From positions 1 to 36,809 of the forward strand of contig CANMFQ010000035.1 in NCBI GenBank assembly GCA_947497145.1: DNA of 36,809 nucleotides, in the 5' to 3' direction. How positions within the stretch are numbered: the stretch's first letter is position 1; each line of letters starts with the position of its first letter. The stretch comes from an uncultured Flavobacteriaceae bacterium (GTDB lineage: Bacteria; Bacteroidota; Bacteroidia; Flavobacteriales; Flavobacteriaceae). Below, piece by piece: positions 3,739-27,000 of this stretch. The position numbers and the translations under genes are program-made. Below the pieces are notes generated by a model. It was not told the origin of the DNA and made no database searches. It worked only from the letters and a program-made list of their open reading frames with translations.

Positions 3739-6700
3739 ATGTTTACACACGTATCTGTTTTTTTTCAAATTACTCCCCTGTTAAAGAAAATACATCAAGT
3801 AAAATCAATAGGGGTGATTTTATTACTGATGTTTAATGTAACCGTAGGACAATCTTTTGCAACTATTTTTCCGAAAAATACAATAGCAAAGCAAAAAAGT
3901 ATCCTATTTGTTGATGCTCAAATCACAAATAAAAAAGGCTTACAATCATTTGTAATGGACGATATTCAAACAATTCATTTATTTTCTCATGGTAGATCAG
4001 GTGAATTATTGATAGATGGCGAATGGAAAGATGCAAAGGCAATTGTATCATTTCTGAATTCAGAATTTGCAATCCAAAATGATCAATTCAAAACTATTAA
4101 CATTTATGGGTGTGAATTTGCCAAAGGCGAAAAAGGAAAACAAGCCGTTGCTTACCTAGAAAATAAACTAGGGCTTCAAGTGAATGCCTCTACCAATATT
4201 ACAGGGAAAGATGGCGATTGGGTGTTAGAAGTCGGAGACAAAGATTATACTTCAGTTTTTTCTTATGAAGGTAATTTACAAACTTGTGCAGGGACATCAG
4301 GAGGAACAGGAGAAAATGATGATTATGACAGTGATGGAGTGTGTAATAAAGATGATTTAGATTATGATAATGATGGTATTTTAGATGTACATGAATGCGA
4401 AGATTTAATACCATATGTTTATCATTTGTTCGATTCAAGCAATGATCTTTATAAATCTACTTTCGGAGGATTAATAATAGATGCAGGAGAAGATGGAGGT
4501 GCAGTTTATGTTGAAACAGGAATTCCTTCAACAGTTGAAAATATTGCTATTGATAAAGGCAATCTGTATTACCTTTCAAATGGAGAGATATTTCAAAGCA
4601 CAAATTTAGGAGCAAGCTGGACTTCAATGGCAACCACTAGTGTGGGAGCCAGTGTGAATAATTTAGCAGTTGATAATGGTGTTTTTTACCATATTTTTAA
4701 CAATGCAGGAACTGCAGAACTGTATTCTAGTACAAATTTATCTAATGGATGGACTTTACAAGGTAGTTTGTCTGTATCACCAGACAGTATAGACGATATA
4801 GCCGTTTTTGATGGTCAATTTTATATCTTAAACCTACTAGACCCTGAGAGTGAAGGAAATCATGAGATATATACAACTTCAACTCCATTACAAGCGTCGA
4901 TGTGGCCAAATGCAAACAGTGCAATGGATGTGTTTGGAGCAGATGTTAAAAGCCTAGGCATAGGACAAAATGCGATTGAATGTGATGTAGATAACGACGG
5001 TATTCCAAATCACTTAGATCTAGACAGCGATGGCGATGGCTGTCCAGATGCTTTAGAATCAGCTTCAAGTCCATATAAATACAGTGATCTTAATAATGAT
5101 GCCAGTATTAACACTACAACACATGCGGTAAATGGAGATGGTATACCATCAGGAACATCTTATGTTATTGGTACATCTCAAGATAATGCACAGCAAGCAG
5201 ATGAGTGTGATCCTTGCAATAGTTCTAGTACATTATTTGTAGATAGTGATGGAGATACTATTGGAGATGTTTGTGATTTTGATGATGATAATGATGGTAT
5301 CTTAGACACAAACGAGTGTACTGGGCCAGATGTGCCTTTAACTGTAGAGGCTATAGGTACTCCTCTAGCAGCTTCTACTGTAGGAGTGGGACAAAATTTA
5401 CCTAATCTAACTTATACTATACCAGAAGGATCAAATAGAGTGATGCTTTTTGTTGTCTCAACAGAAAGGGTGATGTGTTCGGGTCAAGCAACTGCTGCTC
5501 CTGTAGCACATAGTAATAATTCTGAAGATGGAGTAGAAAATGCTGGAATTGAATTTAATGGCACTAAATTAAAGTTTCAAGATAAAAGTTGGAATCTTGC
5601 AGGTAGTGTATCAGTACCTAGTTTTGAACATTATTTTGCAGTATATGCGCTGTGGGAGAGTGATATACAAGCCTTATCATCTACAACTGGAAGTTTTTCT
5701 TTTGTTGCTGGTGACGGTTTTACTGCTCATGGATGTGCTCAAGACGAAACAGTAGTAAGTGTGATTACATATCAAAATGTACTTCAAGAAACAGATGAGG
5801 TGTTAACACAAGACGTTTGGTCTGGTTGGTTTGAGCTAGGAGGCGCTACGCTTTATCCACCACCAGGTGGGGTAGATTCTTGGGATCCTGCTTCGGCTCC
5901 AGAGAATGTACAACCTGCAGGAACAACAGCAGCTAATAACGCCTTATTTATTTATGGGGTAAGTACGGCAGTAAATTCAGTTTCGGTTTCGGCAACAGGA
6001 ATTACCGAAAATATTAGAACAGTAGTTAACAATACAAGTGCAGATACTAATACTACTGATTCTGCATGGAACGAAAATGATGGGACGTTTTTATCGATTT
6101 CAACAATTTCAGGAATTAGTACTACTGAAAGTGTTACAATAAATGGTCCAGCTTCATTTGCAGGAACAGCTAGAGGTTTAGAGTTAGTTTCGGTAGGTAC
6201 AATACCTTCATGTATCGATTCAGATGGTGATGGGATATTAGATAAGTTGGATTTAGATTCCGATGGCGATGGTTGTCCAGATGCCATTGAGGGTGGTTCA
6301 ACATCAATAACGGATTCTAATCTAACAACTTCTACTATGCCTGGCGGAAATTCAGGTACAGGTTATAATGGTATTTCATCAACAGCTGTACAACAAAATT
6401 TAGGCACCACAGTAAATGGAGATGGTATTCCTATGAGTGCAAATACAGGTCAAACCGTTGGCGATTCACAAACAGGAAGTACAGATACCGAATGTTGTAA
6501 AGATGCAGATAAGTTTTTAGGGGTAACTGATTCTGACGGTGATGGTATAGGAGACGGATGTGATCAAGATGATGATAATGATGGGATATTAGATACAGAT
6601 GAATGTAACGGGGGACTAACAACAGAACTGTTTAATAACGCTCAATTAGATTTAGCAGGAACAACGGCACAAGTCAGTTTTATTCCTAGTGGTTGGACTA

Positions 6701-9700
6701 TGGGGAATCAAACAACAAATAGAGATGATTTTAATGCAAATGTGTTAAATTCCTTAAATACTTGGGGTGTTTTACCATCATCTCAAGGCTGGTCGTCAAC
6801 AAATACAGCATTATTACATTCTTCTCGTATTGGAGATTATGAAAGTATAACAAATACGTTGACGGGCCTAGTCCCTGGGGCTACTTATAGTTATTCATTT
6901 GAAGCTGCTTTAAATATGAATACAAGTCTGTCAGGGTCATCTGCAATTACAGGAGGTGTTCTAGAGGTAAAAGTGGATAATGTTGTGGCAGGAAGTTATG
7001 AAGTGCTTTACAATAGTCCAGCAAGACGCTATACGTTTACTTGGACGCAACCCGCTGGAGACACCGATGCTGAGATCGAATTATTCACGGGTAATGCTAT
7101 AGTTGGGACGGCTGCAAATAATAACCAAAACCCTTCTTTCTTTGTTTTGGGAGGATCTGGTAGTTTTGAGAGAACAGATAATATGTCTTGTATAGATACC
7201 GATAACGATGGTATCCCAAATAGTTTAGATTTAGATTCTGATGGCGATGGTTGTCCAGATGCTATAGAAGGTGGTTCAACAACTATAACAGCTTCTAATT
7301 TAAGTACATCAACAATTTCTGGTGGAAATTCAGGAGCAGATTACAATGGTATATCAACAACAGGGGTACAACAAAATTTAGGGACAACAGTGGAAGAAAC
7401 TGACCCCGCCAAATTAGGTGTCCCCATCACCGCAGGAACAGGACAAACTGTAGGTGCTTCACAAACTGGAAGCACAAATACCGAATGTTGTACAGATGCC
7501 GAAAATTATGCAGGAATAACAGATACAGATGGAGATGGATATGGAGATGCCTGTGATTTAGACGATGATAATGATGGTATTTTAGATACTACAGAAAATG
7601 CTTCTGTTGTTACAACAGTTACTGCTGAATATCATGAGACAGCTTCAGATGCTACATTAAGTAATGGTGATTCTAGGAAATTAACATGGGGTACTAATCA
7701 TGTTGAGGGTACTGGAAATGATCTACCTAATTATTATGAGTATAATGGTGCTACTCAAGAATTTTCTCCTTCTGGTTCAATCATTCCTGGTATTGATGGA
7801 GCCCTTGATTATAGTCTTGCTGGAGGAAATGTACATCTTACAAATGATCCTGTTGTTGAGGTTCAAGATGTATCTATATATTTTGCTGAAATAGATGCTG
7901 GTAGTCCAAACGGAAAGGTCACTTTTACTAATGTTTATAATCATTTAGGAATCCAGTTATTAACTCTTGGTCAAATTGAGATATTTGATATTAGAGATAA
8001 TTACGGAGCAAGTATGGTTGAAAACCCTGCGTTTTTGATGCTTACAAACCCATCTCCAGGAGTTTTTGTTATGAAAAAAAACCCTTCTTTTCCTAATACA
8101 GATTTACATTTTAAAATTCGATCAACTACAGGATTTATTCAACGCTCAGATGTAGCTTTAGAAAATTTAAAACAGGATGATTGGATTGGAATTAAAATGT
8201 TAAGAAAATTAGCAACTCATTTGGATACAGATAATGACGGCATTATTAATTCACTAGATTTAGATTCCGATGGCGATGGTTGCCCAGATGCTATAGAAGG
8301 TGGTTCAACGACAATAGCTTACTCAAATTTAGTGTCATCAACTTTACCTGGCGGAAACTCAGGTGCCGATTATAATGGTATTTCAACAACTGGTGTACAG
8401 CAAAATTTAGGAACTGAAGTTAATAGTGATGGTATTCCAAACATAGCAAACACAGGACAAACTGCTGGCGACTCTCAAAATGGAAGTACAAATACAGAAT
8501 GTTGTTCAGATGCAACAAACTATCCATCAATTACAGATACAGACGATGATGGTATAGGAGATGCTTGCGATTTAGATGATGATAATGATGGAATAAAAGA
8601 TGTAGATGAAGAGTGTAAAGGATTTATATCTCAAAATACAGATGGTAGTTGGATTGGTGAATCTGAGAGTACAGCAGACGTTACACTTTCTCCTTCAGGT
8701 TTTGGTGTTAGACCCAATGGACAAACAATTACTACCGACCAGATTCAATATAATATGAAAAAACGTGGTGGAGACGCTATTGTTGATTATACTGGAAATT
8801 CAGAATTTAAAGTTACTTTTTCGCCTGGTGTACCAGCAAACGAAATAGCTTTTTATATATATGATTTTGATGAAGCATCATCGCCAAATGGATATTTTGA
8901 TGTAACAATTAATGGAGGAAACCCAGCGGGAGTTAATTTTGAAGAAGTAGAGTATGGATATGCATATACCTTAGATTATAATGCTTCCTCTAGCCAAGTT
9001 GTTTCTGACGGAGGAGAAGATCAAAGAATTCTTATACGTGGTGTTGGAAATTCACTTATTACAGAATTTAAAGTGACTTCTGTCAATTTAACTACAAGTG
9101 AATATATGGCTTATTCTTTATTAGGAAAAAGTTATTGTGATTCCGATGGTGATGGAATAAAAAATACCTTAGACTTAGATAGTGATGCTGATGGTTGTCC
9201 AGATGCTGTTGAAGGAGCAGGCTCATTTGATGCCGAAAACTTAGTGACAAGTACCTTAGCAGGAGGCTCAACCAATGTAACCACTAATTTATGTAATTCT
9301 TCAACTTGTGTAGATAGCTCAGGTGTACCTATTGTGAATGGTAGCACTGCAGCGCAATCGCAGGGTAATGCCCACCTATATAGTACTAAAACAGAATGTT
9401 GTTTAGAACCAGATGAATTCGCTAATATAACAGATAGTGATGGAGACGGAATAGCAGATGGTTGTGATTTAGATGATGATAACGATGGTATTTTAGATGA
9501 CAATGAAAATAATTATGTGAATTTAGCAGCTTCAGGTACAGCTACCCAGTCTTCCAATTTGTCAGCATCTTATCTGGCAAATAAAGCTATCGATGGCGAT
9601 ATTAACAATTTTTCACATACATCTAATCAAGATCAAAATGCATGGTGGCAAATAGATTTAGGAAGTGTGCAAGATATTAGCTTTATGAATATCTATAATC

Positions 9701-12700
9701 GAGCAAATTGCTGTCAAATTAGATTAGAAGACTATTATGTTTTTGTGTCTGACGTACCTTTTACAGCTACAGATATTACTACTACCCAAAATCAAACTGG
9801 AGTTTTAGATATTCATGAGGCCAAACAGGCTGGTAGGCCAACCGTTATTAATATAAATAGAACAGGTCGTTATATTAGAATTCAATCAACTAAGAATCAA
9901 GAATATTTACAAATCGCAGAAATTGAAATTTTCGATAATCCAAATATTGATATAGATAATGATGGTATTCCAAATCATTTAGACTTAGACAGTGACGGCG
10001 ATGGTTGCCCTGATGCCATAGAAGGTGGTTCAACAACTATAACAGCATCTAATTTAAGTATATCAACACTACCAGGCGGAAATTCAGGAATAGACTACAA
10101 CGGTATTTCTTCAACAGGCGTGCCACAAAATTTAGGAACTTCTGTTGATAGTGATGGTATTCCAATGAGTGCAAGTACAGGACAAACAGTGGGGGATTCT
10201 CAAACAGGAAGTACAGATACCGAATGTTGTACAGATGCCGAAAATTATGCAGGAATCACTGATTCCGATGGAGATGGATATGGAGATGGTTGTGATTTAG
10301 ATGATGATAATGATGGTATTTTAGATGTAAACGAAGGCAATACAGGTTTTGATTATACCAAACTTAATATGCCTAGTACATTAAATAATGGTGTATCATA
10401 TAATACACCTACAACTTTATTAGATGGAGCAACTGTTAATGTAACGGCTAAGTATACTGGCGGTTCAGCTACTGTAGTTTATAATTCAGCTGCTAGTGTA
10501 GATGGGTATACATATCATAATGGAACTAACAATGATCAACCTATTAATGGCGTACAACGTTTTGAGTATAGTTTTGATATACCACAAAAATATTTGCGTG
10601 TAAGAGCTCTTTTTAATGAGCATTTCGGAGAATCTAATGCTACTTCTAGTGAAGGGTTTAGTTTAATTCTTAACGGAAGTAATAACTTTCATGTCTTTGA
10701 TCCCGCAAATATGTCTTCTACCATGAATATTGACGATAGTATTGGTGGAGGAACCATTGCTTATAGTTCTTCTGGAGGTTATTATACGATATATGATCCT
10801 AATGGAATTAGTAGTATTTCATTATTTAGTCGTATTTATCAAGGAAGTGCGGGAAATGCAGCCGCTTATCAAGTAGCTCTTGGTTCAGAAACGAATCAAG
10901 ATACCGATGGCGATGGTATTTTTGATCACTTAGATCTAGATAGTGATGGTGATGGTTGCCCTGATGCCATAGAAGGTGGTTCAACATCAATAGTATATAG
11001 TAATTTGGTTGATTCTAGCATGCCTAGCGGAAACTCAGGGGCAGGTTATGTAGGCGTGTCAACGGGCGTAAAGCAAAACTTAGGAACAAGTGTAAGCAAT
11101 GCAGCAGCAACTTTAGGAGTTCCAACAATTGCAGGAGCGGGACAAGCAATAGGTTCATCCATAGATATGGCCACGGTGGTTTGTTGTGATGCATCAGAAT
11201 CTGGTTTCCCAGATGCAGATAATGATGATGTTGCAGACAACTGTGATTTAGATGATGATAATGATGGTATATTAGATACGGTTGAGTATGGCGGAGTTAA
11301 CCCAGCCACTGATGCAGATAATGATGGTGTTCCATTGTATTTAGATGATGATGATGCAGACAATACAAAAGGTGATGACAACTCGGCAGTAGAAACTGCT
11401 TTTGATTCCGACGGTGATGGAAAGGCTAATCATTTAGATGCCGATAGTGATGATGATGGCTGTAGCGATTACAGTGAGACTGATACTAACGAAACCGATG
11501 GTAGTGTATTGGTGGTGTCAGGGCCTTATGGTACTAATGGTTTTGCAGATGCCTTAGAGTCGGCAGCAGATAGTGGTACAGCTACCAATACAGTAAATAC
11601 AGATGGTGGAACAAGCTATGCTGCTGCTACCAATCCTAGCGATGTGTCTTGTGTCCTTTTTAAAATAATTGACGATGACATAAGTGTTACTGAAGATAAC
11701 GATGCGATAATAAGTATTTTAGGCAATGATGTTAACGTACCTAGTGATGCTACAGTAACTATAACACAACCAAGCAACGGTACAGTAGTTAAAAACAGTG
11801 ATGGTACTGTAACCTATACTCCAGATACTAATTTTAGTGGTACAGATACCTTTACTTATGAAGTTTGTGACACCAAAATGACACAAAGCTGTTATACGGC
11901 AACAGTAACGGTAACGGTTAATGCAGAAAACGATCCTCCTGTAGCAGATGATGATTCAGAAACTGGTTTTGAAGAAGATCCTGTTGTTATTGATGTTTTA
12001 GCAGGTGATACCGATGTTGATGATGACATAGATGAAACTAGCGTTGTTTTTGTACATCCGCCAGCGGGAACTACATTGTCTCCAAACATGAAAATGTTAA
12101 CAGCACCAGGCCAAGGCGTATGGACAATAAACCCGAGTGACGGAAAAGTAACCTTTACTCCAGAAACAAATTTTAATGGTACCGTAACACCAGTGCAGTA
12201 TACTGTAGATGATATGGCATCAGGTACATCAAACCCGGCAACAATATCAGTTACCATAACGTCGGTTAACGATGTTCCGGTAACTACTGAGGATGCTGCT
12301 TCTGGATATGAAGATACGCCAGTAACGATAGCTGTTTTAGAAAATGATAGTGATGTAGATGATCCTATAGACCCAAGCAGTGTGACATTTGTAAATCCTC
12401 CATCGGGAGCAACCTTGTCATCAGATGGAAAAACCTTAACGGTACCAAACGAAGGCGTTTGGACAATAAACCCGAGTACAGGGCTTGTTACCTTTACTCC
12501 AGATACCGGATATACAGGAGATGTTACCCCTGTAGCATATGCCATTTCTGATGGTAAAGACACTTCCATACCGCAAAGTATAGCAGTTACCATAAAGCCG
12601 TGTGAAGAATTACCAACAGGTGATTGTGATGGCGATGGTTTAACAAACGCTCAAGAGCAAGCCTTAGGTACAAATCCATTGAGTAATGATACCGATGGCG

Positions 12701-15700
12701 ATGGTGTAAGCGATAGTCAAGAACAAATTGATGGCACAACAGCAACAGATCCGTGTAGTTTAACAGTAGCTAACAGTGATGTTACCCCTACGAATACATG
12801 GAATACTTCTGATTGTGATGGCGATGGTTTAACTAATGCAGCTGAATTAACCAATGGAACGGGTATAAATAATCCCGATACCGATGGTGATGGCGTAAGT
12901 GATGGTCAAGAAATTGATGATATGACCAGCCCTACTGATGGGTGTAGTTTAATTTTGGCTAGTCAAACACTCACAGCTAGTTCAGCATGGCAATCAGGTG
13001 ATTGTGATGGTGATGGAAATAGCAACGGATCTGATCCACATGTATTGGAAGCAACTGCAACCAATGATAATACACACGCAGACGTTGGTGTTGTAAAAGA
13101 AATAGCAATACTTTCTAATGATGATTTTAATATAGGTAGTACAATTACTGTTTTAACAACAGGTACAGCGTCAGGTACCATATCTGTAGATCAGTCTACG
13201 GGTAAACTTAGCTACACGGCCGTAGCGTCAGAAGATAATGGTACCGCAACTATTGATTATCGTGTTTGTAATGATGCCGTATGCGATACAGCTACAGTAA
13301 CCATTTCAATTCCTTCTTGTACAGATACCGATGGTGATAATATATGTGATGTTGATGATACCGCACCAAATGATGCCTGTAGCCCCAATGATCATCCAGA
13401 TTGGGTATCTCCATCAGATTCAGACTGTGATGGTGATGGCTTAACCTATGGTGAAGAAACCACAGGTATCGATGACCCCAGCACGACAGCAGATCCAAAT
13501 GGAGAGCGCACCGATCCAATGGATAATGATACTGATGGTGATGGCGTAACTGACGCCCAAGAAGCGATAAATGGTACCGATCCAAATGATTCGTGTTCGT
13601 ATAGCTCGGCAAGCATAACTGAGCCTATAGATTCTGGTGCAGATTGTGATGGCGATGGTTTATTAGATGTGGAAGAAATTACAGGTGTTGACGACCCTAG
13701 TACAACTGCAGTACCAACTGGCACAAGTAATGTAACTGATGTTTGTGATCCTCTACAAACCGCCCCAAGTTGTGATACCGATGGCGATGGTGTAACTAAT
13801 GCAGAAGAAGCTGCTTTAGGTACTAACCCAAATAATGCAGATAGTGATGGTGATGGCGTAAGCGACGGACAAGAAGTTAGCGACGGTACCGATGGTGCTA
13901 ATCCATGTGATTTTGTATTAGCGAATCAAGATGGCACTCCAAGTGCAGCATGGTTAGCTTCAGATTGTGATAACGACGGTATTACTAATGGCGAAGAAGT
14001 AACGAATGGAACAAATCCGCTCAATGGAGATAGTGATGGTGATGGTGTTAGTGACGGTCAAGAACAAACCGATGGAACCGACGCAACCGATTCATGTACC
14101 TTCGACCTTAACAATCAAGATGCTTCACCAAGCATAGCATGGCTAGGTTTAGATTGTGACGGCGATGGTTTAACCAATGGGCAAGAGCAAAATTTGGGCA
14201 CAAATCCATTAAGTAGTGATAGTGACGGTGATGGTGTTAGTGACGGTCAAGAACAAACCGATGGTACAACAGCAACAGATCCGTGTAGTTTAATAGCAGC
14301 TAATAGCGATGGTACGCCAACTAATGCATGGTTAGCTTCAGATTGTGATGGTGATGGCTTATCTAATGAGGATGAACTTACAAATGGCACAGGGTTAAAT
14401 AATCCCGATACCGATGGCGATGGGGTAATTGACAGTCAAGAGGTTGATGATATGACTAGCCCTACTGATGGGTGTAGTTTAATTTTGGCTAGTCAAACAC
14501 TAACATCCAGTTCAGCATGGCAATCAAACGATTGTGATGGCGATGGAAATAGCAACGGATCTGACCCACATGTATTGGAAGCAACCGCAACCAATGATAA
14601 TACATACGCAGACGTAGGTGTTGCAAAAGAAATAGAAGTGCTGGGCAATGATGATTTTAATTTAGGTAGTACAATTACTGTTTTAACAACAGGTACAGCA
14701 GCAGGGGTAATAACTGTTAATCAATCTTCGGGTAGCATTACGTATACGGCGTTAGCAGCAGAAGATAATAGTAGTGTAACGGTTAATTATCGCGTTTGTA
14801 ATGATGGGGTATGCGATACAGCAACAGTAACCATTACAATTCCTACTTGTATAGATACCGATGGTGATAATATATGCGATGCTGATGATACGGCACCAAA
14901 TGATCCTTGTAGTCCGAGTGATCATCCAGATTGGGTTCCAATATCAAATTCAGACTGTGATGGTGATGGTTTAACGTATCAAGAAGAAATAAAAGGGATA
15001 GACGATCCTAGCACGGCAGCAAATCCAAATGGAATTAGAACCAACCCCATAGATAATGATAGTGATGGTGATGGCGTAACTGATGGTCAAGAAGCGATAA
15101 ATGGTACCGATCCAAATGATTCATGTTCTTATATTCCATCGAGTATTACTGAACCAATTGATTCAGGAGCAGATTGCGATGGTGATGGTTTGTTAGATGT
15201 AGAAGAAATTATGGGTATAGACGACCCTAGTACAGCTGCTGTGCCTGCAGGAATAGGAAATACGGTAGATATTTGCAATCCCTTACAAACAGCACCAAGT
15301 TGTGATGGTGACGGTGACGGTTTAACCAATGCTGAAGAGGCTGCTTTAGGTACTAACCCAAATAATGCAGATAGTGATGGTGATGGCGTAAGCGATGGTC
15401 AAGAACAAATCGATGGTACAACAGCGATTGATCCATGTAGTTTAAAGGCTAGTAGTCAAGATATTTTGCCAAGTATATCATGGTTGTCATTAGATTGCGA
15501 TGGTGATGGTTTAACGAATGGGGAAGAAACCACAGGAGTAGATGATCCGAGTACATCTGGTAGTCCGAATGGAATAATTACTGATCCGACAAAATCAGAT
15601 ACTGATGGTGATGGTGTAAGCGATGAAGAAGAGGCAGCTAATGGTACCGATCCTAATAATCCAGATACCGATGGCGATGGTTTAACTGATGGTGAAGAAT

Positions 15701-16593
15701 TAAATAATATTGACGACCCTAGTACTCCAAGCGTGCCTACAGGGGTGTCTAGTCCAACGGATGCATGTGATCCAGATAGCTCAGGGTCAGATTGTGATCT
15801 AGATGGTGATGGTTTAACTAACGCTGAAGAAACTGCAAACGGTACCGACCCTAATAATCCAGATACCGATGGTGATGGTTTAACTGATGGTGAAGAAGTA
15901 CATAATATTGATGACCCCGCTACTCCCGGCGTACCTTCGGGTGTATCTAGTCCAATAAATCCATGCGATCCTGATAGCTCTGGGGCAGCTTGTGATACTG
16001 ACGGAGATGGAGTAACCAATGGCGAAGAGGTGTTAAATGGAACAGATCCTCTTGATGCTTGTGATTATAGTGCTTTAAGTCAAGATATTGCCTTAGTAAG
16101 TGAATCTTGGAATGCGCTAGACTGTGATGGTGACGGATTATCAAATCAAGAAGAGATCGAGATAGGTACAGACCCTATCAATAGTGATACTGATGGTGAT
16201 GGTATAAGCGACAATGATGAGTTAACTGCGGGTACTGATCCATTAGACGGTTGTAGTTCTGTTGGCGGCACACCACCATTAGGATCTGATTGTGATATAG
16301 AAATCATAAGCGATTTGATTTCGGCAGATGCAGAAGGAGGTGTTTTCACTATTCGTAATATTGAGCATTATCCACAAAATAAAGTAACCATTTATAATAG
16401 GTGGGGTGTTATTGTTTATCAAACGGAAGGTTATGATAATAAAGAAAATGCTTTTAAAGGTGTTTCTAAAGGAAGAGAGACAATTAAAAAAGAAGAGGGT
16501 TTACCGGTAGGCGTTTATTATTACACCATTTATTATGTTAATAAAGATGGTGTGGCCAGAACAAAAGTTGGTTACCTGTATATAAACCGATAA
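3739..16593 (+). CDS. Giant DUF4347 / TSP3-cassette / cadherin-like adhesin with T9SS type B sorting domain (4284 aa)
   Basis: Signal peptide ~1-41 (hydrophobic core [13 protein letters not shown], cleavage near SFA). DUF4347 ~55-175 with SHGRSGEL (His84) and [10 protein letters not shown] (Cys125). Then seven linker cassettes (~416-527, 826-956, 1152-1284, 1495-1624, 1801-1924, 2070-2199, 2388-2515) separated by different inserts: a propeller-like region with Asp-box-like strands (221-413), an unrecognised domain (528-825), a DUF642/CBM-like domain (957-1150), two unrecognised beta-rich domains (1285-1494, 1625-1800), an F5/8 type C (discoidin-like) domain (1925-2069) and a domain beginning GFDYTKLN (2200-2387). 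Three cadherin-like/Big_9 repeats (2643-2953), a long TSP3 field (2955-4184) and a T9SS type B C-terminal domain (4187-4284: [17 protein letters not shown]) follow. The family is exported by T9SS and attached to or released from the outer membrane. I infer a Ca2+-stiffened surface adhesin with several ligand-binding inserts; ligands are unknown. ATG at 3739 is chosen because it precedes the signal peptide; no ribosome binding site is evident. An intrinsic terminator follows. Confidence 0.95.
3901..4263 (+). other. DUF4347 domain of gene 2 (possible caspase-like fold)
   Basis: Residues ~55-175. A hydrophobic strand leads into [13 protein letters not shown] (His84); a second strand leads into [13 protein letters not shown] (Cys125); [13 protein letters not shown] closes the domain. 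The same His and Cys occur with the same 41-residue spacing at 17445 and 29933. Placement in DUF4347 is by recognition of these family motifs. The caspase-like interpretation is inference from the HG...GC pattern and spacing. Confidence 0.8.
9511..9945 (+). other. F5/8 type C (discoidin-like) insert
   Basis: Residues ~1925-2069 of gene 2. Visible hallmarks are [20 protein letters not shown], a WWQIDLG strand, a following strand around [10 protein letters not shown] and a C-terminal RYIRIQS strand leading to IAEIEIFD. F5/8C and fucolectin-like domains usually bind carbohydrates or lipids, so this insert is the clearest candidate for a ligand-binding payload. It has an internal Cys-Cys and no bracketing cysteines. 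Confidence 0.8.
10336..10905 (+). repeat. Insert 'D' (GFDYTKLN type), also present twice in gene 4
   Basis: A domain of about 188 residues starting around [18 protein letters not shown] and ending SRIYQGS...[11 protein letters not shown]. Near-identical DNA, including synonymous positions, recurs at about 21946-22512 and 22900-23463. No family was recognised; a beta-sandwich is plausible from the alternating hydrophobic pattern. It has no bracketing cysteines. Confidence 0.85.
11665..12597 (+). repeat. Three cadherin-like / Big_9 repeats of gene 2
   Basis: One short repeat ([20 protein letters not shown]...DTFTYEVCD) and two long ones opening with NDPPVADDD and NDVPVTTED and ending PVQYTVDD / PVAYAISD. 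Each long repeat is about 110 residues with the typical D-V-L-x-N-D-x-D-V-D motif. They probably form an extended stalk between the linker/insert region and the C-terminal TSP3 field. Confidence 0.85.
12622..15440 (+). repeat. 1530-bp in-frame tandem duplication in the TSP3 field of gene 2
   Basis: Anchors separated by exactly 1530 bp (510 codons): GATTGTGA at 12622 and 14152, AGCAACGGAT at 13021 and 14551, AATAATGCAG at 13831 and 15361. Each unit holds TSP3 motifs ([12 protein letters not shown]), one embedded Big_9-like domain (ATNDNT...YRVCND) and the DTAPND and [11 protein letters not shown]-type segments. The copies differ at scattered positions, so the event is not the most recent in the window. 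Confidence 0.9.
16297..16590 (+). other. T9SS type B sorting domain (CHU_C) of gene 2
   Basis: The last ~98 residues: [20 protein letters not shown], then [26 protein letters not shown] and GYLYINR at the very end. This is the pattern of the gliding-motility-associated C-terminal domain, the type B signal for export through the T9SS. In known cases such proteins usually need a PorP/SprF-like partner, none of which is encoded in this window. Confidence 0.93.
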
Positions 16594-16674
16594 TTGTCCA
16601 AGGTAGTATATGCTATTAGTAGCGTAGCATTAAGGTGTATAAGGCGCTAAACAAGTTTTAAAGCCATAATAAAT

Positions 16675-16715
16675 AAAAAATCAAGTCATTGAACATCAAT
16701 GACTTGATTTTTTTT
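16675..16715 (+). terminator. Intrinsic terminator of gene 2
   Basis: ATCAAGTCATTG (ending 16691) pairs perfectly with CAATGACTTGAT (from 16697) across a 5-base AACAT loop, followed by a run of eight T. The stem is preceded by six A, so it could also stop transcription from the other side. It lies about 80 bp after the stop codon. Confidence 0.9.
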
Positions 16716-16970
16716 GTATTCCATCTAACCCCTTACGTGCAAAACTATTAGGTTACAGTTAAAAATGTTGTGCATGTAGGTGAATAAAAAAAACAGTAAC
16801 ATTTTATAGGTATATAGGCTTTGTAAAATGATGTCAATATTATGTATAAGCTATTGATGAATTTTGAATTGATAGGATACAGTGCAGTCTTAAAATATAT
16901 GATGCTACAAAATATTTACATGTTATTTCTTACTTATTATATAATATTTAGCTTAAACAAAAGTTAATAT

Positions 16971-16986
16971 TGTAAGAAAAAACTTA
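16971..16986. repeat. 16-bp motif shared with the gap before gene 5 (copy 1)
   Basis: TGTAAGAAAAAACTTA is identical to 29648-29663. Both copies lie in an intergenic region upstream of a DUF4347 gene (about 470 and 285 bp from the starts). It could be a regulator site, but A-rich composition makes chance possible. Confidence 0.35.
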
Positions 16987-17444
16987 ATAAATGTAAATGA
17001 GAAACAATTACTTCTACTTTGAGTTTAGTCATCAGAAAATTTTTAGCGAAAAAGTAATTTTAAATGTTCTGCTTCATTAGGTGTTCTTACTGATGTTTTT
17101 TAGCCCTGATTGGTTTGTCAAGGTCTAACCTAAAGATTGTAGGAAACACGCTAAAGAAACTATAATCGCTAAACGATCCTTTTAAATTCTTCAATAAATA
17201 GGGGTTAAAAGAGACTATTACAAACAAATTCTGGCCCTATGGGTGTTGCATATCAGGCGAATTCAGTGAAAAGAATCAAACATTTCTTCATGGCTATATA
17301 GAAATGTCAAATCCATTGGTCGAAAGCAAAAGGTAGTTTAAAGGGTTTACGAGGTGGTTTAAATGTTTTCAACAAACAAAAAGTAATGGGTTCATTTAAT
17401 TTGTGGCTCAAATGTTTTTACAAAAACGAATAAAACAAATAATT

Positions 17445-18041
17445 ATGAAACAATACACACCATTAGTAAAGTTAATATCGCTATTAATTTTAATGCTAGT
17501 TTGTCAGTTAGATGTATTGGCAAAAAGTGTTGTAGATGCAACGTTCGTCCCTAGTTCTTTTCTTGCCGATTCAGTATCAGCTACTGATTTATTAAAGGCA
17601 AAGTATAATAATGATTCTTGTGGGTTTGATTTGTTTTCTCATGACCGTTCACAAGAATTAATGATTCAAGGCGAATGGAAAGATGCAAAAGCCATTGTAT
17701 CATTCTTGAATTCACAATTTGTAAGCCAAAATGCTCAATTCAAAAGTGTCAATATTTACGGTTGCGAGTTTGCCAAAGGAGAGCAAGGCAAACAAGCTGT
17801 TGTGTATTTAGAAAAACATTTGAATGTAAAAGTAAACGCTTCTACGAACATCACAAGAAAAAATGGTGATGGGTTTTTACAATATAGATGCCATCAAGCA
17901 AAAGGTATTGCTGTAAACAGATTAATAGCACGAGACTATGGTGAATCACAATTAATAAATAGATGTCGTGATGCAATAAGCTGTACAGACATAGAACAAC
18001 AAAACAATAGACCTAATGAGTTTATTGCGATTATAAAATAA
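17445..18041 (+). pseudogene. DUF4347-OmpA C-terminus chimera (198 aa), probable deletion relic
   Basis: ATG at 17445 opens a classic signal peptide (KLISLLILMLVCQLDVLA, cleavage near residue 26); earlier GTG (17403) and ATG (17412) would only lengthen the n-region. Residues ~60-143 match the DUF4347 domains of the flanking giants ([31 protein letters not shown]). His66 and Cys107 remain, but SHGRSGEL has become SHDRSQEL and the GDW motif reads GDG. From about residue 151 the sequence switches to the end of an OmpA-family domain: KGIAVNRLIARDYGESQLIN, then two Cys and a degenerate H-Q-x-N-R-R-x-EF motif ending IAIIK. The start of the OmpA domain is missing. A single in-frame deletion joining the 5' end of a giant adhesin gene to the 3' end of an OmpA gene explains this. 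It may still be expressed as a small secreted protein, so 'pseudogene' is provisional. It ends 40 bp before gene 4. Confidence 0.75.
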
Positions 18042-18081
18042 ATGAGATTGTAATTTGATTAAAAACATAAAAGAATTAGAA

Positions 18082-21000
18082 ATGAAAACAACGAATCTTA
18101 ATAATAAAAAAATGAAGTTCTTTTTAAATTATAAATTGCAATTTAAATTTGTATTGTGTTTATTGTTTTTAGGAGGTGTAACTACTTCATTGCAAGCACA
18201 GGTATGCTCTTCGACAGCTAATATACCTGCTTCTGGTACTGTTACTATAAATGGCATAGGAATAACAACAAGTTATTCAGGGTCTGTTTCTAGTTATAAT
18301 GGTTCGCTGACTGCATGTACAGGCTCTTCTGAAGCAACTACTCATCCAGGGGCACTTTATGTAGGTAATGCAGGGTTTTGGAGAGAAACCTTAACATTTA
18401 GTGAGCCTGTCAATAATATGATTATTGTTATTACAGCAGCAGGAACCAATCAAAATGAGAATTTCATTTTTAATGTAGATGGTGCTCCTGCAACGGTTAC
18501 AGATCTTGGGTCTTGTTTTTCTACAATAAATGGAAACGAAATAGTATCAGGGAATGGAGCTCCTCCAGGTGATGCTGGTGGCGGTGGTGGAAACTTTAAA
18601 ATTTCAGCAGCAGCTGCTTATACAACATTAACGATTGAAGGTTCAGGGTTTGAAAGCGGCTCTTTACTTGCTATTTGTCAATCAACAATTTGTGGCGTTG
18701 GTGATGATGACCCAACTTTAAGTGCATCTACACTAGCGGCATCATGTCCAAATCAAGAGGGTGATTTGACGACAATTACAGCAACTAATACCCCATCTTC
18801 TGGCAATATTGAGTTAACATGGCATACTTCTGAATTCGCAAATAATGACAATTTAGTTTCTACGGCTACTAGCGTTAGTAGTGGTACTTACTATGGGGCT
18901 TTTCATGATATTACAAACGATTGTTTTGGGCCGACCACAAGTATAGTTGTAACAGAAGCTGACTGTTGTGATGCAACAATTAATACTTCGCTTATAGATA
19001 GTGATGACGATGGTTATGCTGATACTTGCGATTTAGACGATGATAACGATGGAATAAAAGATATAGACGAAGAATGTGGGGGGTATATTGCTCAAAATAC
19101 AGACGGAGTTTGGAAAGGATTTACAGAAAGTGTGGTAGACGTAACTTTGGGTGGTAATAGTTTTGAGACTCTTACTAATGAAAGAACATATACAGATGGT
19201 CAAGTGTCTTATTCTATAAATTTACGAGGAGGAGATAAGTGGGTAAGAACACAAGGGGGGACAGTAGAGATTACCGCTACTTTTTCTCCAGGAATTCCAA
19301 TAGATGAAATAGCATTTCATGTTTTTGATATGGATCATAGCAATTCACCAAATGCATATTTTAACTTTACTATAAATGGAGGGACTCCAGCTGGTAATCT
19401 TATTGAAGTAGTAGATTATGGATATGCATCACCATCAACTTATGATGCAACAACAAGTAGATTGGAAGCATCAGGAATTCCCGATCAAAGTACTTTATTA
19501 AAAGGAGTTGGTAATACCATAATCACAGAGCTTAAAATTGAATCTTTTAGTGTTGGGACTGGAGATTGGATGGCTTATTCCATATTTGCTAGAAGTGATT
19601 GTGATACCGATGGCGATGGAATTAAAAACACCTTAGATTTAGATTCAGACGGCGATGGTTGTCCAGATGCTACAGAAGGCGGTTTAACATCAATTATGGC
19701 TTCTAACCTAGTTACATCAGCACTTCCTGGTGGAAACACAGGAACAGATTACAACGGTACAGCAACAACAGGTGTACAACAAAATTTAGGGACTACAGTC
19801 AATACTGATGGTATTCCAACGATAGCAGGAACGGGACAAACAGCCGGCGATTCACAAATAGGAAGTACAGATACCGAATGTTGTAAAGAAGCAAACAATT
19901 ATCCCGCAATAACTGATACCGATGGTGATGGTATAGGCGATGGTTGTGATTTAGATGATGATAATGATGGGATACTGGATTCGTTGGAATGTGATCTTTC
20001 AAATTTAAATTATAATTTTATAACATACTGGACCTTTAATGATAATACATATTCAGCTTCAACACCGTCTTCAGTTTTTACTTCAGCATCAGATTTAATA
20101 TCAGGTTCTGGGGTTACAAAAGATATAGGATTTTATCCTACAAAAGCAATGAGAGTTAATGATGTTAATAATAATTCTTTATCCACTTCCATATCAAATA
20201 ATGATTATGTAGAAGTTTCGGTTACAACTGATAATGATATTGGTTATACTTATTTTTCTCAATATGGTAATTGGTATGATGGAGGAGCAATAGGACTGGG
20301 GTATTATCCATATGATTATAGTATGCAAATTTCAACAGATTCTAATTTTTCTAATTACACAACGTTGATTGATAATTACAATTCTTTACCTCCAAGTACT
20401 TCTACCAAAGGATTTAATTATGTTGCGTTACCTAATCCATATAGATTGGAGTCAAACACTACTTATTATATAAGGGTATATTTTTATAATGCTCCAGCCG
20501 GGGGTCAGATTGTATTTGATGATTTTATTATTTACACAACAACATTATCTTATCCTTTATGTGATTTCGATGCAGATGGAATTCCAAATGAAACAGACTT
20601 AGATAGTGACGGGGATGGTTGCCCAGACGCTATAGAAGGAGGGTCAACATCAATTGCTTATTCTAATTTAAGCACATCTACTATTGCTGGCGGAAATACA
20701 GGTGCTAATTATAATGGATTAGTAGCAACAGGTGTACAACAAAATTTAGGGACTACAGTCAATACTGATGGTATTCCAACGATAGCAGGAACAGGACAAA
20801 CAGCCGGCGATTCACAAATAGGAAGTACAGATACCGAATGTTGTAAAGAAGCAAACAATTATCCCGCAATAACTGATACCGATGGTGATGGTATAGGCGA
20901 TGCTTGTGATTTAGATGATGATAATGATGGTATTTTAGATACAGCTGAATGTACTTCATACGAATTAATTTCTTTTGATTTTAATGCAGACGGTAGTTTT

Positions 21001-24000
21001 GAAACCTTAGCTTCTATTGCGAGTAATGATACTTTTAATAGTGATATTACTAGTGGAGGTTCTGGTTGGGTAAACACACAGGGTTCTTTAGATTCATGGG
21101 TAAGTCCTATGCCTACGACAGGTTCTGGTACTTGGGCAGGAATGGCAGACGGATTATCAGCATCACCAGATGGAGGTGTTTTTGTAGGAGGATGGATTTC
21201 TGATGGATCTTTTGAAGGGTTTAGTACTACTGTTACAGGTCTTACAGTAGGTAAGGAATATACCTTGAAATTTTATCAAGCAAATGCAGGAGTTGAAGGA
21301 ACTACACCCGTTAATGTAAATCAAAAAGCAAGATGGAAGGTTCAATTTGGTTCGGAGACTCTTTATAGTACGGCTATGGATTTTAAAGGAGAAGGGAATC
21401 AAGTTTGGATGGAAGAAACTATGGTTTTTACAGCAACAGCCACTTCTCAAACTTTAGTTTATAGTACAGATAATGATGGAACAGCCTTTAATTTTGAATA
21501 TATGGCGCTAGATGGTATCCGTCTATTAATAGAAAGTGAAAATTCATCATCATGTTTAACAGATACCGATAATGATGGTATACCCAATCACTTAGACCTA
21601 GACAGCGATGGTGATGGATGCCCAGATGCCATAGAAGGTGGTTCAACCGCAATAGCGTATGCAAATTTAAGTACGTCAAGTTTGGCTGGTGGAAATTCAG
21701 GAACAGGATATAATGGAATCGTATCGACAGCCGTTCAGCAAAATTTAGGTACTACAGTCAATGCTGATGGTATTCCAACAATAGCAGGAACAGGACAAAC
21801 CGCTGGTGCTTCACAAACAGGAAGTACAGATACCGAATGTTGTAAAGATGCCGAAAATTATGCAGGAATCACTGATACCGATGGTGATGGCATAGGAGAT
21901 GGTTGTGATTTAGATGATGATAATGATGGTATTTTAGATGTAAATGAAGGTAATATAGGTATTGATTATACCAAACTTAATATGCCTAGTACATTAAATA
22001 ATGGTGTGTCATATAATACATCTACAACTTTATTAGATGGAGCAACGGTTAATGTAACGGCTAAGTACACTGGCGGTTCAGCTACTGTAGTTTATAATTC
22101 AGCTGCTAGTATAGATGGGTATTTATACAACACAGGAACTAACAATGGTCAACCTGTTAATGGCGTACAACGTTTTGATTATAGTTTTGATGTACCACAA
22201 AAATATTTACGTGTAAGAGCTCTTTTTAATGAGCATTTTGGAGAATTTAATGCTACTTCTAGTGAAGGGTTTAGTTTAATTCTTAACGGAAGTAATAACT
22301 TTCATGTCTTTGATCCCGCAAATATGTCTTCTACCATGAATATTGACGATAGTATTGGTGGAGGAACTATTGCTTATAGTACCTCTGGAGGTTATTATAC
22401 GATATATGACCCTAATGGAATTAGTAGTATTTCATTACTTAGTCGTATTTATCAAGGAAGTGAGGCAAATGCAGCCGCTTATCATGTAGCTCTTGGTTCA
22501 GAAACGAATCAAGATACCGATGGCGATGGTATTTTTGATCATTTAGATCTAGATAGTGATGGCGATGGTTGCTCTGATGCCATAGAAGGTGGTTCAACAT
22601 CAATAGTTTATTCAAATTTAGTAATATCAAGTTTACCTGGCGGAAATTCAGGAACAGGATATAATGGAATCGTATCAACAGGCGTTCAGCAAAATTTAGG
22701 AAATACAGTCAATGCTGATGGTATTCCAACAATAGCAGGAACAGGACAAACCGCTGGTGCTTCACAAACAGGAAGTACAGATACCGAATGTTGTAAAGAT
22801 GCAGAAAATTATCCTGCAATAACTGATACCGATGGTGATGGTATAGGCGATGCTTGCGATTTAGATGATGATAATGATGGTATTTTAGATGTAGATGAAG
22901 GTAATATAGGTATCGATTATACCAAACTTAATATGCCTAGTACATTAAATAATGGTGTATCATATAATACACCTACAACTTTATTAGATGGAGCAACGGT
23001 TAATGTAACGGCTAATTATACTGGCGGTTCAGCTACTGTAGTTTATAATTCAGCTGCTAGTGTAGATGGGTATTTATACAACACAGGAACTAACAATGGT
23101 CAACCTGTTAATGGTGTACAACGTTTTGATTATAGTTTTGATGTACCACAAAAATATTTACGTGTAAGAGCCGTTTTTAATGATCATTTAGGAGAATTTA
23201 ATGCTACTTCTAGTGAGGGCTTTAGTTTAATTCTTAACGGAAGTACAAACTTTCATGTCTTTGATCCTGCAAATATGTCTTCTAGTATGAATATTGACGA
23301 TAGTATCGGTGGAGGAACTATTGCTTATAGTGCTTCTGGAGGTTATTATACGATATATGACCCTAATGGAATTAGTAGTATTTCATTACTTAGTCGTGTG
23401 TATCAAGGAAGTGCGGCAAATGCAGCCGCTTATCATGTAGCTCTTGGTTCAGAAACGAATCAAGATACCGATGGCGATGGTATTTTTGATCACTTAGATC
23501 TAGATAGTGATGGCGATGGTTGCTCTGATGCCATAGAAGGTGGTTCAACATCAATAGCGTATGCAAATTTAAGTACATCAAGTTTACCAGGCGGAAACTC
23601 AGGTGCTAATTATAATGGTACAGCTACAACTGGAATACAACAGAACTTAGGAACTACAGTCAATGCTGATGGTATTCCAACGATAGCAGGAACAGGACAA
23701 ACCGTTGGTGATTCACAAACAGGAAGTACAGATGCCGAATGTTGTAAAGATGCAGAAAATTATCCTGCAATAACTGATACCGATGGTGATGGTATAGGCG
23801 ATGCTTGTGATTTAGATGATGATAATGATGGTATTTTAGATGCTGATGAACTTTTGTGTGAAAATATTAAAATAGATCGTTCACCAGATTCATCTAGTTA
23901 TGATACTACCCAAGTTAATGCCTTCCCTTCGGGTAGAGAATTGTCAAAAACACATGACGGAAGTTTATCAACTTATGGAGGAACACAACCAGCTAGCTCG

Positions 24001-27000
24001 CCCGATGCTATTACGGGTACAGTGACATATATGTATACAAATCCTTTAGATTTTGTTAAAGAGCTTAAAATATATAACAATGCAGGATCTATTCTTACTG
24101 ATGGAGGTAGTGTCGGAACGATAGAAAATCTAAAATTATATGATGCTCAAGGTACTGTTCTATACTCGCAAAATAATATCGTAGTGCCAGAAGGTCCTGC
24201 AGGGAATCCTTTTGTTGTTTCATTTCCCACATTAAGAAATGTCAAATCTTTTTCTTTAACTAATTTGACTGGTACTTCCGGTGGTGGTCAAGAGACAATT
24301 TGGAGAGAAATATACTTAGTAAATGTAACCTGTACTACTGAAGATTTTGATAAAGATGGTATACCAAACAGATTAGATTTAGATAGTGACGGTGACGGTT
24401 GTCCTGATGCTATAGAGGGTGGTTCAACGTCAATTGCTTATTCTAATTTAGCAACGTCAACACTACCTGGCGGAAATTCTGGTGCCGATTATAACGGTAT
24501 TTCAACAACAGGGGTACAGCAAAATCTGGGAACTACAGTGAATGCTGATGGTATTCCAACGATAGCAGGAACAGGACAAACCGTTGGTGATTCACAAACA
24601 GCAAGCGCAAATACTGAATGTTGTGGTGATGCGGGTAATTATGCGTCAATTACAGATACCGATGGTGATGGCATAGGAGATGCTTGTGATTTAGACGATG
24701 ATAATGATGGAATATTAGATACTGTTGAAGATTCTAATTCTGATGGCGATAATAATCCATTAACAAACCCTGATGATATCGATAATGATTTTATCCCCAA
24801 CCATTTAGATGCCGACAGTGATAACGATGGCTGTAGCGATTTAAGCGAGGCCGATACAAGCGTAACCGATGGTGAGGTATTAACGGTAGCGGGGCCTTAT
24901 GGCACCAATGGTTTTGCTGATAGTTTAGAGTCTTCAGCAGATAGTGGTACAGCTAACAACACCGTAAACACTGATGGCGGCACATTATATGCAGCAGCAA
25001 CTGATGCCAATGTTAAGTCATGTTCAATCTTTGAAGTAGAAGACGATACAGCAAGTGTTGATGAAGATGGTTCGGCAACAATAGATATATTAGGAAACGA
25101 TATGGATGTGCCAAGTGATGCAACAGTTACGCTTACACAACCTGCTAACGGAACGGTAGTTCAAAACCCCGACGGCACAGTAACATATACTCCTAATGCA
25201 AATTATAATGGAACTGATACATTTACGTATGAAGTTTGTGATACAGAAACTCCACAAACCTGTCATACGGCAACCGTAACAGTAACAGTGAACCCAGTTA
25301 ACGATCCGCCGGCAGCGGCTGATGATACTGCAACTGTTACTGAAGATTCACCAATAGTAGTAAATGTATTAGCTGATGATACCGATGTTGATGATGCAAT
25401 AGACCCAACCAGTGTTGCATTTGTAACCCCACCAACGGGATCAACCTTGTCTCCTGATGGTAATACCTTGACGGTACCAGGGGAAGGGGTTTGGACAATA
25501 GATGCTGCAACAGGCGAAATTACGTTTACACCGGAAGCTAACTATAATGGTACAGCTACACCAATACAATATACCGTTGATGATGAAGGAGGTAATACTT
25601 CCAACCCAGGAACGATAGCGGTTACAGTATCTCCAGTGAACGATGCGCCAGCAGTAGCAGGAGATACGGTTACAGGTACTGAAGATGCACCAGTATCTAT
25701 TGATGTACTTGATAATGATACTGATGTAGATGGTACATTAGATCCAACTACTGTAATTTTTGTTAATTCTCCAGCAGGTGCAACATTATCAACTGATGGA
25801 AAGACTTTAACGGTACCAGGAGAAGGAGTGTGGACTATTAACCCAACAACTGGGGAGATGACTTTTACACCAGAGGCTAATTTTAATGGTGCGGCTACTC
25901 CAGTTGAATATACTGTAGAAGATGACAGTGGGCAGGTTTCACAGCCTTCAGTAGTGAATGTAAGTTTAAGTCCTGTTAATGATGTGCCGGTGGCGGCAGA
26001 TGAAGCCTTATCTTCACCTGAAGATACGCCAGTTAGTATAGCTGTTTTAGCGAATGATAATGACCCTGAAAACAGTTTAAATCCAGCAAGTGTTAGTTTT
26101 GTATCTACTCCAACAGGGGCAACATTGTCGCCTGATGGCAAAACTTTAACCGTACCAGGAGAGGGTGTTTGGGAAATAAACCCTACTTCAGGCGAAATAA
26201 CATTTACCCCTGAAAGTAATTTTAATGGTGCTCTTACTCCAGTGGGTTATACTGTAGCAGATACCGATGGTCTGGTGTCTAATGAAGCAATGATTAATTT
26301 AACAATTACCAGTATAGACGATCCTATTCATGTAGAAAATGATATGGGTACAACATCAGAAGATACCCCATTAGAAATTGATGTATTGGCAAACGATAGT
26401 GATGTAGATAATGATTTAGATCCCACTAGTGTTACTTTGGTAAACCCACCAGCAGGTGCAACATTGGCTGCTGATGGAAAAACGTTAACGGTGCCAGGAG
26501 AGGGCGTTTGGACGGTAAACCCAACAACAGGAGCTGTAATCTTTACTCCTGAAGATGATTTTAATGGCGATGTAAGTCCAGTTGGCTACACTGTAATGAA
26601 TGATAATAATGAGGTGTCTCCAGTAGCATCGGTTATCAATATTACGGTAACACCAGTAAATGATGCACCAAGAATGGCAGATGATATGGTTACAGGGTTG
26701 GAAGATACACCTGTAACGGTAGATGTTTTAATCAATGATAGTGATGTAGATGGATCCATTGATGCAACAAGTGTGGCTTTTTATATGCCACCAGCAGGAG
26801 CTACATTGTCTGCTGACGGTAAATCCTTAACCGTACCAGGTGAAGGCGTATGGACTATAGATCCTGTTACGGGTGCGATGACTTTTACACCAGAGGATGA
26901 TTTTAATGGTACAGCAACGCCAATTCAATATACGGTGGCTGATAATGACGGTTTGGTGTCAGATCCAGCAACATTAAGTGTTACTTTGTCGCCAGTAAAT

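Follow-up and report, generated by a model that had tools for sequence, protein, structure and literature searches.

How can one family of proteins hold a constant segment and, between its copies, domains that mostly have no detectable relation to each other? The question is raised by contig CANMFQ010000035.1 (here C35) of an uncultured Flavobacteriaceae bacterium (GenBank assembly GCA_947497145.1; 5.1 Mb in 198 contigs, 99.97% complete), the 36,809 bases of which are referred to as the window, i.e., the whole stretch of DNA that was analyzed. Its five genes all lie on the + strand, and four of them contain a "linker" of typically ~126 residues that, where repeated, alternates with variable "inserts". 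A preliminary description of the window had proposed that the linker is a scaffold that lets inserts be swapped in frame. The reading that we favor, with a probability of roughly three in four, is that these genes encode giant predicted type IX-exported proteins in which homologous recombination or gene conversion within the flanking linkers moves the inserts.

A profile built from 14 of the window copies recovered exactly 15 full-length linkers of 108–131 residues, one in gene 1, seven in gene 2, six in gene 4, and one in gene 5, as had been counted before; the range then given for the four genes (4984–24730) spans only genes 2–4, however, and leaves out the linkers of genes 1 and 5. Among the contig stretches read from the whole genome, the profile identified 107 full-length linkers (158 domains overall), which are spread over 19 stop-to-stop reading frames of 14 contigs; one of these linkers (in C3, 16.4 bits) is very weak. 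Searching the whole genome with a single sequence yielded 140 matches, with partial ones counted. Recurrence by chance is excluded, since E-values reach 1.0e-72 in this genome, whereas in the congeners only one match at E ≤1e-10 was obtained, in 1/13. The longest frame encodes 11,610 amino acids with 28 full linkers (contig C31, about 5200–40045, − strand; L021 and L022), which is very long for a bacterial open reading frame.

The linkers are conserved by selection on the protein, because the median nonsynonymous difference (pN) between 52 typical copies (1326 pairs) is 0.14 against a median synonymous difference (pS) of 0.54. Since this conservation acts at the protein level, the linkers resemble structural spacers kept by selection, with a second role as homology arms, and not recombination sites as such. 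Fifteen columns are invariant over 76 linkers of this and other genomes, namely ten Asp, two Gly, and one each of Cys, Glu, and Asn. The 3′ end (profile positions 90–123) matches thrombospondin-2 (E 0.004) in a sequence search of solved structures, in which the remainder of the linker had no match, while the 5′ end shows by eye the same Asp spacing of thrombospondin type 3 (TSP3) repeats; the TSP3 edges described earlier are thus backed by a match on one side and by visual inspection on the other. Asp-rich motifs of the DxDxDGxxD type with spaced Cys are present, the TSP_3 and TSP3_bac matches of genes 2 and 4 pass the cut-off, and the motifs would be expected from their sequence to bind Ca2+. 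A structure model of the linker is fairly confident (pLDDT 84.9, pTM 0.76), and Foldseek found no good match to it among solved structures, the best being thrombospondins at E ≥4.

If inserts move by themselves, recent copies of an insert should lie between linkers that are not equally recent, and this is what was observed. Of 185 same-family insert pairs in this genome, 18 have a synonymous difference below 0.2 (0.00–0.17). Sixteen of these recent pairs are isolated, i.e., without a matching known neighbor, and their inserts differ on average by 0.10 at synonymous sites, compared to 0.43 for the flanking linkers; in the two collinear pairs, the flanking linkers average 0.48. For instance, the family E inserts of C31 and C54 are 98% identical in amino acids (pS 0.06) between linkers at 0.51 and 0.50, and family D copies in gene 4 of the window and in C41 are 97% identical (pS 0.09) between linkers at 0.38 and 0.41. 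Inserts and linkers keep an equal clock, because nine old collinear pairs between C31 and C23 are equally diverged (insert 0.54, linker 0.56; a few of these pair non-equivalent positions). That linkers mutate faster and thereby cause the decoupling was ruled out by these nine pairs together with linker copies that are as close as pS 0.035. The data support in-frame movement of inserts from linkers of one gene to those of another, uncoupled from most of the linker sequence.

This bears directly on the alternative of simple vertical descent, in which whole-gene and tandem duplication would have produced the family and purifying selection alone would have kept the linkers constant. The linker pN/pS of about 0.26 fits such a history, as do collinear runs in C31 and C23. 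Yet the 16 recent inserts with different or unknown neighbors and with linkers at near-background synonymous divergence are at odds with it: for families A, B, D, E, and G, such descent is contradicted as far as the recent copies are concerned. Turned around, the comparison gives a similar picture: of 14 linker pairs with a nucleotide identity of at least 0.90, eight have an unknown flank, and of the other six none share both inserts, four share one, and two share none. We regard vertical descent as unlikely to account for the family.

Recombination in the linkers should also leave its borders there. Switch points, the positions where the similarity of a recent pair gives way to background, were placed using each linker position's own background (nucleotide identity 0.64–0.93 per 18-nt bin over 41 linkers) and compared with simulated uniform switch points. 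The 3′ switch falls no more than 105 nt from the linker edge in 16/18 recent pairs (null 26%) and the 5′ switch in 12/18 (null 27%). After overlapping pairs had been thinned to 11, the counts were 9/11 and 6/11, so the clustering is clear on the 3′ side and moderate on the 5′ side. In this genome, near-identical payloads therefore occur in differing contexts, with arms at background divergence and switches inside the arms.

Targeted movement or mutation of the inserts, by a diversity-generating retroelement or by a site-specific recombinase, is highly improbable. Nothing was found in its favor, genes for reverse transcriptases and recombinases not having been searched for, and the switch points range from about 0 to >100 nt into the linker instead of marking one site. 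Of the 470 differences in recent pairs (overlapping pairs, with repeat counting), 271 are transitions and 258 lie at third codon positions, with no adenine excess; by this spectrum without adenine-specific changes, retroelement-type hypermutation and a role of the inserts as target of a diversity-generating retroelement were ruled out.

The linkers themselves are mosaics. Their two halves have the same nearest neighbor in 7/41 linkers compared to 17/41 for odd and even codons, and in a PHI test none of 1000 permutations was as low when all sites were used (p 0.04 for third positions). Such mosaicism is what one would expect if inserts stayed put after duplication and gene conversion from other linkers repeatedly overwrote the linkers, and this overwriting would also explain the linker between the A and B inserts common to C41 and C35, the mid-part of which has diverged while both inserts are close, and the two of six close linker copies that have unrelated inserts on both sides. 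It leaves unexplained, however, why 16/18 recent inserts have differing neighbor inserts. As a full account, overwriting is therefore unlikely; it probably acts alongside insert movement and not instead of it. Homogenization of linkers within genes was considered as well and ruled out, as identity is 60.8% within and 61.0% between genes, with neighbors slightly closer (67.8%).

Several observations weigh against movement of inserts through linker recombination as the whole explanation. The 18 recent pairs are not independent of each other, all of them belonging to the five families named above. Some blocks extend deep into the linker (247–290 nt) or across a whole one (393 nt), so a recombined block can carry linker along. 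In the collinear runs of C31 and C23, linkers and inserts are equally diverged, which fits plain block duplication and is the very pattern that the preliminary description had named as speaking for simple descent; it was seen there, while the 18 recent pairs are decoupled. Part of the linker-insert family thus arose by ordinary block duplication and not by pure shuffling, and the proposed in-frame swapping stands in this genome as movement between paralogues to which duplication adds. Over all 185 pairs, the divergence is nearly equal (insert 0.55, linker 0.59), and the linker-minus-insert gap is 0.05 in the 159 isolated and 0.04 in the 26 collinear pairs; the overall gap is small because most pairs are old, and it is the 18 recent ones that provide the contrast.

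Outside this genome, same-locus insert pairs of at least 60% identity were taken as a replicate, and three were found (two in L105, one in L110). Near-identical inserts in L105, an uncultured Aquimarina, have a pS of 0.23 with 0.22 in the left and 0.35 in the right linker, i.e., no decoupling, and count as co-duplication in favor of vertical descent, whereas the other two pairs are old and show no contrast between insert and linker. Because the first pair was copied with its left linker and the others are old, decoupled movement is shown for this genome only. Moreover, the assembly is fragmented at linker repeats, and an identical B–B block of 593 nt in C23 may be an assembly error. The start of contig C54 and the end of C52 both fall within a linker, and the frames of C41, C47, and C54 are cut short at repeats. 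The linker family has probably broken the assembly, and the copy numbers are therefore lower bounds.

What lies between the linkers was assessed for all 88 segments between successive full copies in the genome, of which 85 have 145–303 residues, one has 50, and two have six. The 85 inserts (>100 residues) fall into 32 sequence families; 18 of these have at least two members, which are spread across genes in differing orders. In the window, 11 segments of 150–303 residues belong to nine families. The earlier statement that the inserts are mostly unrelated and ~145–300 residues long was thus borne out in size and general diversity, with family D, present three times, and a segment upstream of the first linker of gene 4, 48% identical to family A, as the related cases. 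Common ancestry of the inserts was not upheld, as profile comparison linked only 2/496 family pairs at a probability >90 (A–P and F–H), and a fold common to them may lie beyond the reach of sequence comparison.

A Pfam scan (E 0.01) was run on 85 segments, a set that includes the segment upstream of the first linker of gene 4 and omits one insert that spans two stretches. It gave F5/8C domains in 10/85 segments and single cases of PA14, CBM_4_9, GLEYA, and beta-propeller models, while at least 41/85 scanned segments had no Pfam match at this threshold. The F5/8C, PA14, GLEYA, and CBM_4_9 matches suggest that inserts may bind glycans or other ligands. The designation of the inserts as beta-rich could be followed for family A only, and with low confidence: its fold model from a five-row alignment (pLDDT 63.8) has its best Foldseek match at E 0.002 among many beta-sandwich and carbohydrate-binding modules. 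Naming the fold was dropped, since the structural matches were too weak.

A Cys lies within eight residues of both ends in 55/85 inserts, of one end in 9/85, and of neither in 21/85, across unrelated families. The interiors are almost Cys-free (0.0032 per residue) and 82/85 inserts have an even Cys total; in inserts of other species, the corresponding counts are 62/82 with Cys near both ends, 9/82 near one, and 11/82 near neither. From this pattern, we read the insert as a domain whose two ends are probably held together. The two six-residue linker–linker junctions, in C31 and C23, have no Cys and look like empty insert sites; because they occupy equivalent places in the collinear run of both genes, they represent one event and not two.

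In molecular terms, homologous recombination or gene conversion in the flanking linkers that carries a heterologous insert along is the most likely process. The linker would be a selected spacer of the Ca2+ (TSP3) type of about 126 residues, the insert an independent domain, mostly with one Cys per end, seated between two TSP3 ends, and at the DNA level the linkers would act as homology arms scattered through 19 reading frames. Recombination or conversion begun in two linkers could then place a copy of the enclosed heterologous insert in another gene, free of frame errors because of these scattered arms. The agent would presumably be recombination of the RecA type, the proteins are probably displayed on the cell surface, and what is known of the domain families suggests fibers stiffened by Ca2+ that display glycan-binding beads; a changing repertoire may be of benefit to the cell. 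More tentatively, linker and TSP3 edges could form a standard socket into which any domain with its ends together, mostly with a Cys at each, can be plugged or which can be left empty; more than 100 sockets would be a shared pool, so that single cells would differ in the binding domains of each giant protein, and lineages across Bacteroidota would use this system with linker sequences of their own.

Within the window, linkers and inserts alternate in genes 2 and 4, with identities to other copies given below for amino acids. Gene 2 (3739–16593, 4284 aa) starts its series with a short linker of the 108-aa type (4984–5307), after which come three inserts without a relative among the inserts of this genome, u28 (5308–6216, 303 aa), u29 (6595–7194, 200 aa), and the Cys-free u30 (7588–8223, 212 aa), separated by linkers 2 (6217–6594) and 3 (7195–7587, 131 aa). 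Linker 4 (8224–8601) precedes a family A insert (8602–9138), which has Cys at both ends, is 92% identical in amino acids to the first A of C41, and belongs to a family of 14 copies in the genome. Linker 5 (9139–9498, 120 aa) is of a type that separates A from B inserts in C35, C41, and C59, and the B insert that follows (9499–9948) is an F5/8C (galactose-binding-like) domain 92% identical to B of C41. Linker 6 (9949–10326), a D insert (10327–10899; 86–91% identical to D copies in C31, C41, and gene 4), and linker 7 (10900–11277) complete the series. In gene 4 (18055–29037, 3660 aa), the A-like segment (19063–19602) is followed by linker 1 (19603–19980), a family K insert (19981–20562), linker 2 (20563–20940), a family G insert (20941–21561) that is 95% identical to G of C45, and linker 3 (21562–21939), the first row of the modeled linker alignment (A2). 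An adjacent D–D pair follows, the first at 21940–22512 and the second, 97% identical to D of C41, at 22891–23463, with linker 4 (22513–22890) in between, and then linker 5 (23464–23841), a family Q insert (23842–24342; 69% identical to Q of C41), and linker 6 (24343–24720).

Both genes contain Big_9/cadherin-like domains, which in gene 4 are of the tandem-95/CshA type and occupy nine stretches, as well as CshA repeat matches and TSP3_bac domains (17 stretches in gene 2). Each ends in a C-terminal CHU_C-type sorting domain of type IX secretion (16327–16584 in gene 2, 28756–29028 in gene 4; both + strand). Gene 1 (1–2925, 974 aa, open at the 5′ end) has one complete linker (100–477) and a GEVED domain near the C-terminus; the domain search found no CHU_C match in it, although the C-terminus is present. 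An F5/8C domain and one complete linker (35816–36202) occur in gene 5 (29933–36808, 2292 aa, open at the 3′ end). A DUF4347 domain with SHG and YGCEF motifs lies near the N-terminus of genes 2 (3958–4251) and 5 (30095–30373), the motifs being reminiscent of the His/Cys pair of clan CD peptidases; the domain occupies the N-terminal region of giant proteins predicted to be type IX cargo. Gene 3 (17403–18041), an open reading frame with DUF4347 as its sole Pfam match, starts like its neighbors, stops after 212 aa upstream of gene 4, and looks like a broken or truncated member of the family. Elsewhere in the genome, the ends of the C31 and C11 genes resemble CHU_C-bearing ends by eye, while the frames of C41, C45, C47, C48, C50, C52, and C54 reach the contig end or break off without such an end, as judged by eye from the letters. 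Two stretches of C11 (L033, 2742–4936 and 11588–13783), where two linker genes with linkers mostly of a 136-aa type lie, share a 2.2-kb block at 97.7% identity.

A scan of species genomes gave at least 323 encoding stretches, of which 80 were kept; by title, all derive from Bacteroidota except for one bin of Anaerolineae, and this match (L060, WFSA01000211.1), in a metagenome bin, is either a transfer out of Bacteroidota or a case of mis-binning. Loci L038–L129, some of them duplicates, contain 162 full linkers and 82 inserts, 19 of which resemble a family of this genome. In 15 other loci with at least four full linkers, linkers are on average closer within than between loci, from 70 vs 51% (L044) to 49 vs 48% (L055). 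Within the genus, 124 profile matches at E 1e-8 were obtained here (150/232 candidates scored) vs 0–10 in 13 congeners, not all of which are complete. A gene of one congener encodes six full linkers, which are about 102 residues long and differ in the middle, together with five inserts, of which four belong to a single family. In a sample of the family, 42/395 genomes, including this one, match at E 1e-15, with at most five matches in any other genome (11 candidates scored per genome). From these counts, the architecture is widely distributed, with a lineage-specific linker, and the expansion seen here is exceptional among the genomes searched.

Domain shuffling in bacteria is often inferred from the comparison of distant species. 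Because one genome here holds many recent and old copies between conserved arms, the grain of shuffling, i.e., tract ends, turnover of sockets, and the range of admissible domains, is open to direct measurement. Should insert order vary between strains, the surface repertoire would be unusually large, and protein engineers would have a socket, already tried out in nature, for domains of about 30 sequence families.

Among known systems, thrombospondin type 3 repeats (thrombospondin-2; 1YO8, 2RHP) share Asp-rich Ca2+ motifs with the 3′ end of the linker and, by eye, their spacing with its 5′ end, and are not known to be interrupted by such inserts. In cassette-type antigenic variation (pilE/pilS of Neisseria, vlsE of Borrelia), conserved flanks guide the copying of variable segments; unlike there, the copies described here sit in long open frames and the inserts are whole domains of mostly unrelated families. 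A literature search found no paper that describes this linker-insert system, as judged from titles and the beginnings of abstracts. Fibrillar adhesins of the CshA/B NR2 type have in common with it adhesive beta-sandwich domains, varied stalk domains, and CHU_C anchors in Bacteroidota (PMC10952558); in that paper, shuffling is inferred from domain orders across species and the word "recombination" is mentioned 0 times in the main text, whereas here the shuffling is between paralogues with mapped switch points. Adhesins of this type have an NR2-like adhesive domain upstream of a GEVED-like one and CshA repeats as their stalk; in the window, CshA repeats were matched in genes 2 and 4 and a GEVED domain in gene 1. 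The closest case is that of the gingipains and HagA of Porphyromonas gingivalis, for which a comparison of 21 strains describes cleaved adhesin domains (CADs) of kgp, rgpA, and hagA that are rearranged or exchanged by recombination and adhesin repeats that break draft assemblies (PMC5266723). Both are predicted or known surface proteins of Bacteroidota with repeated adhesin units, recombination, and assembly breaks. In Porphyromonas, however, the adhesin domains are themselves the repeats (PMC5266723), whereas in the present genome the repeated element is a conserved linker distinct from the inserts, most of which fall into families not detectably related, on a scale of 107 linkers in 19 reading frames. 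A gingipain K2 adhesin domain is among the many weak fold matches of insert family A, and none of the 85 scanned segments has a cleaved-adhesin Pfam match (E 0.01). The linker-insert system works like the CAD rearrangement of Porphyromonas without being a member of it; its behavior resembles a known kind, of which we judge this family to be a very large new form.

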